The position numbers were made by a program, and so were the translations under genes. This document shows, piece after piece, positions 42,974 to 44,562 of a DNA stretch of 64,000 nucleotides. The stretch spans positions 1,054,001-1,118,000 of the forward strand of contig NC_057373.1 of the NCBI RefSeq assembly GCF_016906535.1, given 5' to 3'. How positions within the stretch are numbered: position 1 is the stretch's first letter; every line of letters starts with the position of its first letter. This DNA is from Rhizoctonia solani. Taxonomy: Eukaryota; Basidiomycota; Agaricomycetes; Cantharellales; Ceratobasidiaceae. The notes below the pieces were generated by a model, which saw only the letters and a list, made by a program, of their open reading frames with translations, was not told the DNA's origin and did no database searches.

Positions 42974-43612
42974 TTACTCTGTCACAGCGTCTAGAGGGGG
43001 AGGCTTCTTGAAGAATCGACTGCGCCTTTCTGCCCTGGTATCTATTCCTGCCGTATCCTGAACGCCTCCGGTCAAGGACCGGCCAGCGGCATCGAACGAT
43101 GCGACCAGTGTTCCGATGACTGCACAAGACGCAAAGGCCATCGGGATGGAACGAGCTGAGAGTTATCGGTTCGTAAATTAATTATATTTATCTGGTTAGT
43201 AAAATGCATACCTCGGAGACCGGCCAACATCCCGGCAGCACATCCACCAGCAGCCCCATTCAGCGAGTCGTCAGTCTGGCGTTGATTAGCTACCGCAGCT
43301 TCTGTGAACGCAAATGTCGCTCCCATCGCAGCTATATACCATGGAACATGGTTAACCCCTGCCAACTCATCCCCCATATGTATGCTCACTAAAGAATCCA
43401 ATTGTTCCTCCGGTACGTGTAAGGATACCAGCAGCGCCTCGATTGTGTTGGTCGAGCGCATTTTGAACAGCACTAACAAGCGTCCCGACACCGGCTGATT
43501 GCAACCCCACAAACGCCGCATTTTGAACAGATGATTTAGGCTCGTAGGCGGATGGCTCGATACTCTGCCTAGTCTGCTTTTTTTCAGGCTCGAATGACAT
43601 AGTCGACGCCAT
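42974..43612 (-). CDS. NADH:ubiquinone oxidoreductase subunit, NDUFA11/B14.7 type
   Basis: Accessory membrane-arm subunit of respiratory complex I, of the Tim17-like fold, in the inner mitochondrial membrane. It starts MASTMSFEPEKKQTRQ (an in-frame upstream ATG exists at 43675). Helices: FVGLQSAGVGTLVSAVQNAL, AAMGATFAFTEAAVANQR, NGAAGGCAAGMLAGLR and MAFASCAVIGTLVASF, with glycine-rich spacing typical of the family. It ends KKPPPLDAVTE. Three junctions are in frame. A generic Tim17/22 family protein is the alternative. Confidence 0.8.
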
Positions 43613-43886
43613 GTCGGAAACGAACGGTAAGTTAGATAGTGATGGGGTGGGATTGGGAAACGAGAGGCAAGTCACATGATCTCAGCGTTAAATGACCAAG
43701 ACCTTCAGGGCCATTGGTTAAGAATCAATACCACCATCCATTGTTTTCTTACTTGTATGCACTACAAATTATGCACTCTAACGGAAAAAAGGAAGGTTGT
43801 ATTAACTAAATATACCAAGCACCACCTGGGTTGTATACATCAAACAAACAGAAATCAACCAAAACCTTTGCTATCTACGTCGTCAT

Positions 43887-44562
43887 TCATGCGTGACGCT
43901 TGGAGCTGCGTGTGCGCCTCATGCGAGGAAGCTCCTTGAGAGCAACCTTGCGGCGATAAGGTTGAAGTACACCATCACTAAAAAAAAAGGCATGAGTACC
44001 AGAGGTTAATAGTGAAATTGTCATAAAACTCACGGAGCTTGCACGGGGGCACTATCGCCGACCTCAACAATAGCTGGATCCTGACGCGGGTAGTTTTGCA
44101 ATTGACCACTGGGTGCCTTCATGGGTTGGCTATCGCTAACTGTAACGATATCTCCTACTTGACGAGGGTAAACTGCCAATACACCATCACTATAATTAAT
44201 GATCAGCACACGCATCGGTACAGAGAATGAATATACTCACGGGGCTTTCATGGGTTCGCTATCTCCAACAGAAACAATGTCCCCCTGTCTGCGGTAGACT
44301 TCCAAGACACCTGCGGGTGCCTTCATAGGAGTACTATCACCGATCGCAACGACGTCGTCTTGACGTTTCTCGTATACTGAAATCATCTTGACATCGCGGA
44401 GTTTCAGTTCAGAAGCCTAGATAAACGTCAGAAACGAACTCCAACTCGTCGGAACGGACATACAGTGTTTGCGACAGGCATGGGCACAGGAATAACTGCA
44501 GCCTGGACCAAAGTTCCAATAAGGAGAGATACGAACACGGCAACGCGCCTGGTGAACATCAT
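43887..44562 (-). CDS. Secreted tandem-repeat precursor, candidate Kex2-processed repeat peptides
   Basis: Four exons (44562..44464, 44416..44241, 44189..44034, 43977..43887) give 173 residues, all in frame. A signal peptide starts MMFTRRVAVFVSLLIGTLVQ. After a pro-segment ending SVYEKR come four repeats of 25-26 residues, each beginning with Gln and bounded by KR, RR or PR. Shared core: (I/V)V.V(G/S)DS.P(M/V)(K/Q)AP.G.L..Y. Repeat starts are QDDVVAIGDSTPM, QGDIVSVGDSEPM, QVGDIVTVSDSQPM and QDPAIVEVGDSAPV. A basic tail follows (MRRTRSSKRHA). KR/RR sites suit the Golgi protease Kex2, and N-terminal Gln would favour pyroglutamate. There are no cysteines in the repeats, so it is not a hydrophobin. 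The fate and role of the peptides are inference. Confidence 0.8.
43950..44362 (-). repeat. Four in-frame tandem peptide repeats
   Basis: Coding tandem repeat of about 75-78 bases per unit, interrupted by two introns that sit at the same codon of the repeat (AP|DG, phase 2) in units 2 and 4. Confidence 0.85.

Follow-up and report, generated by a model that had tools for sequence, protein, structure and literature searches.

A probably KEP-like repeat-peptide precursor gene in Rhizoctonia solani with repeats partly bounded by Pro-Arg

Gene structure, repeats and neighbourhood

The window analysed here, a stretch of 64,000 nucleotides from Rhizoctonia solani, carries at 43887-44562 on the minus strand a four-exon gene whose ATG starts at 44562 and whose stop codon ends at 43887. 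Its exons (44562-44464, 44416-44241, 44189-44034, and 43977-43887) are separated by introns 1 to 3 at 44463-44417 (47 bp), 44240-44190 (51 bp), and 44033-43978 (56 bp), all of the GT..AG type, and the spliced open reading frame encodes 173 amino acids plus the stop. The predicted splicing is supported by the R. solani predicted protein RHS02_04155, which is also 173 amino acids long, shares 97% identity across the full length and is marked partial by its source. Frame 1 of the plus strand was considered as coding for the same interval and rejected, as it is interrupted by stops. An earlier note on this DNA had placed the interval exactly; the strand and the three introns are added here.

The precursor, all parts of which lie on the minus strand, starts with a putative signal peptide, MMFTRRVAVFVSLLIGTLVQA (aa 1-21; 44500..44562). 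By inspection it has what is expected of KEX2-processed repeat proteins (KEPs) at this place, namely a basic n-region, a hydrophobic core, and a V-x-A motif (VQA) ahead of the likely cut before Ala. The pro-segment (aa 22-51; 44363..44499) is split by intron 1 and ends in Glu-Lys-Arg (EKR). It is followed by repeat 1, QDDVVAIGDSTPMKAPAGVLEVYRR (aa 52-76; 44288..44362), ending in YRR; repeat 2, QGDIVSVGDSEPMKAPDGVLAVYPR (aa 77-101; 44162..44287), ending in YPR and split by intron 2; repeat 3, QVGDIVTVSDSQPMKAPSGQLQNYPR (aa 102-127; 44084..44161), ending in YPR; and repeat 4, QDPAIVEVGDSAPVQAPDGVLQPYRR (aa 128-153; 43950..44083), ending in YRR and split by intron 3. Gln is the first residue in all four. 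A basic tail, KVALKELPRMRRTRSSKRHA (aa 154-173; 43890..43949), closes the chain. The spliced 173-residue product thereby bore out, in every detail checked, the layout proposed in the earlier note: signal, pro-segment ending in EKR, four Gln-first repeats with RR, PR, PR, and RR at their ends, and basic tail.

The multiple repeats that characterize KEPs were also evident from an internal self-match, the best 19-residue stretch of which scored 73, while the highest of 1000 shuffles reached 41. Pairwise comparison of the four 19-codon cores gave pS values of 0.45-0.80 and pN values of 0.16-0.33, with pN/pS between 0.20 and 0.58 in each of the six pairs. As synonymous exceeds non-synonymous change, each repeat seems to have been kept by selection, albeit judged on few sites, which suggests that the repeats are old copies under purifying selection.

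Repeats 2 and 4 are interrupted by introns 2 and 3 at an identical codon position, in phase 2 within the Pro codon that precedes Asp-Gly; repeats 1 and 3 have no intron there. The matching positions would agree with an origin of the gene by doubling of a two-repeat unit. On the other hand, introns 2 and 3 are no more alike in sequence than expected by chance, their score being reached by 126 of 500 shuffles, and repeat 2 is not nearer to repeat 4 than to the remaining repeats.

The predicted peptides are acidic, with a net charge of -1 to -4, and contain no cysteine. Monoisotopic masses computed for their pyroglutamyl forms are 2357.146 for QDDVVAIGDSTPMKAPAGVLEVY, 2329.115 / 2426.168 for QGDIVSVGDSEPMKAPDGVLAVY(P), 2544.217 / 2641.269 for QVGDIVTVSDSQPMKAPSGQLQNY(P), and 2447.186 for QDPAIVEVGDSAPVQAPDGVLQPY. 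AlphaFold2, run on the relative P0001 with nine aligned sequences, returned a mean pLDDT of 42.9 with 139 of 173 residues below 50, no folded core, and helix solely in the signal and part of the pro-segment. Because the nine-row alignment is shallow, the model is weak evidence that the precursor may be disordered. A search for relatives of solved structure gave none, the single match having an E value of 0.59. A Pfam identity was likewise rejected: the scan at E ≤ 1 returned two matches for the precursor, DUF5317 and Cuticle_1, both below the cut-off.

Paralogues were not found in the 40.7-Mb, 16-contig genome of the strain, in which both a protein search (four exon matches) and an exact DNA pattern of the core (three matches) hit this locus alone. 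Around the gene, 13 of the 20 flanking ORF pieces scanned carry a Pfam family at E ≤ 0.001. The families are RhoGEF, mitochondrial carrier, Peptidase_S9 and Tim17 (both below the cut-off), NUC153 and ESF1 RRM (two pieces of one region), the ribosomal families S9/S16, L4, and S5, 2-hydroxyacid dehydrogenase, glycosyltransferase 25, Sec23/24, and HLH. These neighbours look like housekeeping genes, with no sign of a biosynthetic cluster among the pieces scanned. In agreement with the earlier note, which had seen no adjacent UstY-type or tyrosinase gene, neither a UstYa (DUF3328) nor a tyrosinase domain was detected in the 20 pieces. A genome-wide search for UstYa was also empty, but carries no information as its controls remained blank too.

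The next gene downstream, at 43072-43671 and in the same direction, is Tim17-like (28.6 bits against a Pfam cut-off of 32.7). In the relative P0006 from strain OPQ81, annotation has fused a C-terminal Tim17 domain, by eye the downstream Tim17 protein of the window, to the repeat precursor. This fusion suggests that the precursor and Tim17 genes are neighbours in at least one further strain as well.

Relatives in Ceratobasidiaceae and repeat boundaries

Nine relatives were retrieved, eight by a single-sequence search and all nine by a profile search: seven from R. solani, P0009 from Ceratobasidium sp. UAMH 11750, and P0005. Two of the entries, P0001 and P0008, are flagged as partial in their source. 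Together with the window protein the relatives form a set of ten, which are not independent because they are related; P0001 and the window protein, for instance, share 97% identity. The set contains 43 cores, three to five per protein except for the fused model P0004, which has six.

P0004 (R. solani, 278 aa) has a second signal peptide inside and looks like two tandem precursors joined by annotation, so that a tandem gene duplication is possible in the strain carrying it. The Cuticle_1 label attached to P0006 is taken as a chance match to the repeat. A basic tail ending in RSS(K/R)RHA, or in RSTRSHA in the case of Ceratobasidium, is shared by nine members of the set, the fused model P0006 being the exception; it is not a repeat, and a role in processing or sorting is possible.

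The repeat boundaries were then compared across the ten proteins. Arg followed by Gln occurs at 31 of the 33 inter-core junctions, with RR as the linker in 4, PR in 15, PRKR in 9, and GTG[LI]TKR in 3. Two junctions depart from this: one marks the gene fusion in P0004, and the other belongs to a partial duplication in P0009 that leaves two cores with no basic site between them. Linker sequence and length thus differ between lineages while Arg-Gln stays. Gln directly follows PR at all 15 PR boundaries, as it does RR and PRKR, and the entry site, KR-Gln, is present in all ten proteins, including that of the window. No 19-residue core in the set contains KR, RR, KK, RK, or PR. The earlier note, which had read the gene as a repeat-peptide precursor, had named repeats conserved without their basic boundaries as evidence against this reading. 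The homologues keep the repeats together with a basic boundary and Gln at those 31 junctions, which supports it.

Cutting in silico at dibasic sites only gave core-bearing fragments of 1+3 cores for the window protein, P0001, P0002, and P0003, and one uncut block for P0005 (five cores) and P0006 (four cores). Single cores were obtained from P0004, P0007, and P0008, with three or more one-core fragments each, and P0009 yielded fragments with 1, 2, 1, and 1 cores. When PR was added to the dibasic sites, all cores were separated except for the pair in P0009. Full release of the repeats, as judged from these sequences, would need Pro-Arg cleavage. In the KEP rule of PMC9769878, one fragment obtained by cutting at KR, RR, KK, and RK has to be similar to at least two others. 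We applied it in simplified form, as a count of core-bearing fragments, of which the window protein has only two (1+3 cores) and by which it falls short; fewer than three are found in six of the ten proteins. We therefore say that the window protein works like a KEP, its own membership hanging on Pro-Arg cleavage, and that the dibasic rule holds for some of its near relatives.

In the literature, six locus tags of relatives gave no match, and among the matches listed for Rhizoctonia together with Kex2 or KEP, none concerned this gene by title and start of the abstract. No word beginning with Rhizoctonia occurs in the main texts of PMC6339444, PMC7329392, and PMC9769878; an earlier listing of a relative is possible in their supplements.

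Similarity to KEP 497993 of Coprinopsis cinerea

KEPs are described as widespread, with mostly unknown function and few peptides detected (PMC9769878). For KEP 497993 of C. cinerea, the same source reports pyro-QIPAELPTKSINGNIEPY(K) by mass spectrometry, mainly from premature fruiting-body caps, and pyro-QVPVDEPA from culture fluid and mycelium. The knockout lacked all three peptides and showed no phenotype under the conditions applied; the bacteria tested were not inhibited by synthetic peptides (PMC9769878).

With the KEP 497993 peptides as a surrogate query and the best 7990 candidates scored, six proteins (P0010-P0015) were found at E values from 2e-33 to 3e-5; the C. cinerea precursor itself was not recovered among these candidates. 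Two of the six are from Lentinula, and the weakest match (E 3.3e-5) is from Tulasnella sp. 419, a member of the Cantharellales, the order of Rhizoctonia. Units of these 497993-like proteins, such as QIPAEVPVKSPNGQVVPY and QIPDEQPVQAPNTGGIVPF, resemble Rhizoctonia/Ceratobasidium units such as QDPAIVEVGDSAPVQAPDGVLQPY and QEIVTIGDSEPVTAPDGIVRPY over the span P-x-(K/Q/T)-(A/S)-P-(D/N)-G-x-(I/V/L)-x-P-(Y/F).

Whole-profile alignment of the Rhizoctonia family with the 497993-like proteins by hhalign gave a probability of 98.0%, which alone is no proof because one permuted profile reached 91%. After gap trimming, the whole-profile score was 80.3, and the highest among 400 block permutations that kept the basic sites was 46.8. 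As block permutation breaks the repeat period, the single-unit test is the harder one; here the score was 21.0, whereas 1000 column permutations averaged 7.1 and reached 17.7 at most. The score remained at 20.9 without P0011, fell to 12.4 when P0011 and the Lentinula units were dropped, and was 7.3 for Tulasnella alone.

Single proteins gave a mixed picture. By full score of the Rhizoctonia core HMM, P0011 alone of the six exceeded all 3000 shuffles, while 36 of them reached the score of P0014, 332 that of P0010, and 1197 that of P0013. By best single domain, 1 of 3000 shuffles reached the score of P0011, 5 each those of P0010 and P0013, and 41 that of P0014. The core HMM had no match in P0012 and P0015. 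The pro-segment similarity is marginal, with 13 of 1000 shuffles reaching the score for P0011, 53 for P0014, 51 for P0012, 190 for P0015, and 714 for P0010. Gln after KR or RR is frequent in P0010, P0011, P0013, and P0015, but was found at none of six sites in P0012 and at one of five in P0014.

Like KEP 497993 and P0010-P0015, the Ceratobasidiaceae proteins are predicted secreted precursors with mostly Gln-first units and basic boundaries, and the core (E/D).P(V/T/M)K(S/A)..G.(I/V/L).(P)Y is common to them and the 497993-like proteins. Unlike the 18-residue unit of KEP 497993, their units measure 22-24 residues up to Tyr, being 4-6 residues longer on the N-side, and they further differ by Pro-Arg at 15 of 31 basic boundaries and by the basic tail. 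Pyroglutamyl peptides have been shown for C. cinerea KEP 497993, whereas the Rhizoctonia peptides are predicted from sequence alone.

Processing, alternative readings and significance

The locus is a real repeat-peptide precursor gene, and its repeats are bounded in part by Pro-Arg. We consider it probable that the encoded protein is a secreted precursor working like the KEPs of Agaricomycetes. As in KEPs generally, a signal peptide precedes repeats placed between Kex2-type sites (PMC6339444, PMC7329392); unlike in them, two of the three inner boundaries are Pro-Arg, so that dibasic-only digestion frees one single repeat.

The precursor chain would enter the secretory pathway, and a Kex2-type protease would cut it after EKR, after both YRR and, perhaps less efficiently, after both YPR. 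A Kex1-type carboxypeptidase would then remove the C-terminal Arg to leave ends in Y or YP, and the N-terminal Gln would be converted to pyroglutamate by glutaminyl cyclase or by spontaneous cyclisation. The output would be up to four linear, acidic, cysteine-free peptides of 23-25 residues.

Candidate genes for these steps are present in the genome of the strain. A Kex2 gene was recognised by a P-domain match at C16:3263318 (E 6.6e-15), and its reading frame matched solved kexin at E 2.9e-43 and furin at E 2.2e-38. S10 carboxypeptidases are represented by 29 matched segments, and a dipeptidyl-peptidase-IV (DPPIV)-like gene is present. Glu_cyclase_2 (PF05096) had no match in the genome, and no cyclase was seen by eye among the M28 loci inspected. 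A glutaminyl cyclase signature pattern gave a sole exact genome match (control zero) in an exon-split gene of the M28 type at C16:1018306, and glutaminyl cyclase sequences in the PDB confirmed this identity (best E 1.2e-22).

If the Pro-Arg sites remained uncut, repeat 1 and a joined chain of repeats 2-3-4 would be released, and the active product would be a longer, multivalent, disordered polypeptide. This would agree with the 1+3 fragments obtained by dibasic-only digestion here, with the single blocks of P0005 and P0006, and with the dibasic pair as the classical Kex2 site (PMC8528282). However, Kex2 can take residues other than Lys and Arg at P2, which this source does not state for Pro-Arg specifically, and C. 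cinerea precursors in Pichia gave products apparently cut after a single Arg, with Pro-Arg not specified (PMC9769878). By the dibasic rule, moreover, relatives bearing PRKR would release every repeat, and the Gln behind each PR boundary would have no obvious reason if it were never exposed. By analogy, Pro-Arg cleavage is plausible, and the uncut product appears unlikely. A surface or wall protein is the next alternative: the gene might give rise to amyloid or repellent peptides in the manner of Ustilago Rep1, or encode a wall-linked repeat protein of the PIR-like kind. A piece of the form IGDxxVxA, which may faintly resemble the PIR repeat, was counted in favour of this alternative, but the Pfam scan at E ≤ 1 returned no PIR family. 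The likeness to Ustilago maydis Rep1 lies in the type of precursor: Rep1, too, consists of repeats processed by Kex2, and its peptides assemble into fibrils on the hyphal surface (PMC8528282), whereas the peptides predicted for Rhizoctonia are short and acidic, unlike repellents, which are called amphipathic in the title of a reference within PMC8528282. We regard a surface or wall function as improbable. With dikaritin RiPP precursors of the ustiloxin type the gene has in common Tyr-bearing repeats between Kex2-type sites. The conserved Tyr near the end of each repeat and the DPPIV-like gene could be cited for a ribosomal cyclic peptide of this type or an alpha-pheromone-like precursor. Nevertheless, the 20 flanking pieces scanned are devoid of UstYa and tyrosinase domains, the repeat starts have no XA/XP dipeptide ladder, and basidiomycete mating pheromones are, according to PMC6339444, not KEPs. 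Either identity, a ribosomal cyclic peptide or a pheromone, is very improbable. The comparisons to Rep1, pheromones, and dikaritins drawn in the earlier note gained no support.

A further alternative concerns ancestry and is compatible with a KEP-like mechanism: the P-x-K-A-P-D-G...Y core may have arisen by convergence, independently of the Agaricales 497993-like proteins, in a lineage-specific precursor of Ceratobasidiaceae. Most KEP types are described as limited to one genus (PMC7329392), and the direct database search leaves the families unconnected, as no Agaricales protein was among the matches at E ≤ 0.01 in a profile search of 5.8 billion proteins (best 7995 candidates scored). The marginal pro-segment similarity and the single-protein matches, mostly in the shuffle range, point the same way. 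Against convergence stand the unit-profile match, above all 1000 column permutations, and the whole-profile match, above all 400 block permutations; in addition, P0015 and P0011 as queries revealed no second, 497993-like gene in the same genome, in a search without positive control. Convergence has a substantial, if less than even, chance of being correct. Common ancestry with the C. cinerea KEP 497993 family, with the Rhizoctonia proteins as its Ceratobasidiaceae branch, is in our estimate close to evenly balanced and at best no better than that.

On the reading as a KEP-like precursor, the most likely role is that of an extracellular signal or a biotic-interaction peptide, and not of a toxin, wall protein, or mating pheromone. 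Being acidic and free of Cys, the predicted peptides do not look like classical antimicrobial peptides of the cationic type. More tentatively, we propose, at somewhat less than even odds, that one peptide family may extend from Agaricales to Cantharellales, built on a P-V-K-(A/S)-P-(D/N)-G core with a Tyr end and carrying pyroglutamate in most of its members. It would be represented here by a single gene, and some Rhizoctonia lineages would have PR where others have dibasic sites, with release by Pro-Arg cleavage or by a separate protease.

Two features make the gene of interest, namely its possible kinship with a family of mushroom peptides known from mass spectrometry, and its unusual Pro-Arg boundaries. 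A family common to mushrooms and the crop pathogen Rhizoctonia would show which parts are fixed, namely the Gln start, the P-K-A-P-G core, and the Tyr end, and would allow Pro-Arg cleavage in basidiomycetes to be tested directly. Screens based on dibasic sites only can miss members, as would happen with the 6/10 Rhizoctonia/Ceratobasidium proteins that yield fewer than three core-bearing fragments. If the proposal is true, the peptides would represent a class-wide signal that has been partly overlooked in Rhizoctonia by such dibasic-only screens.
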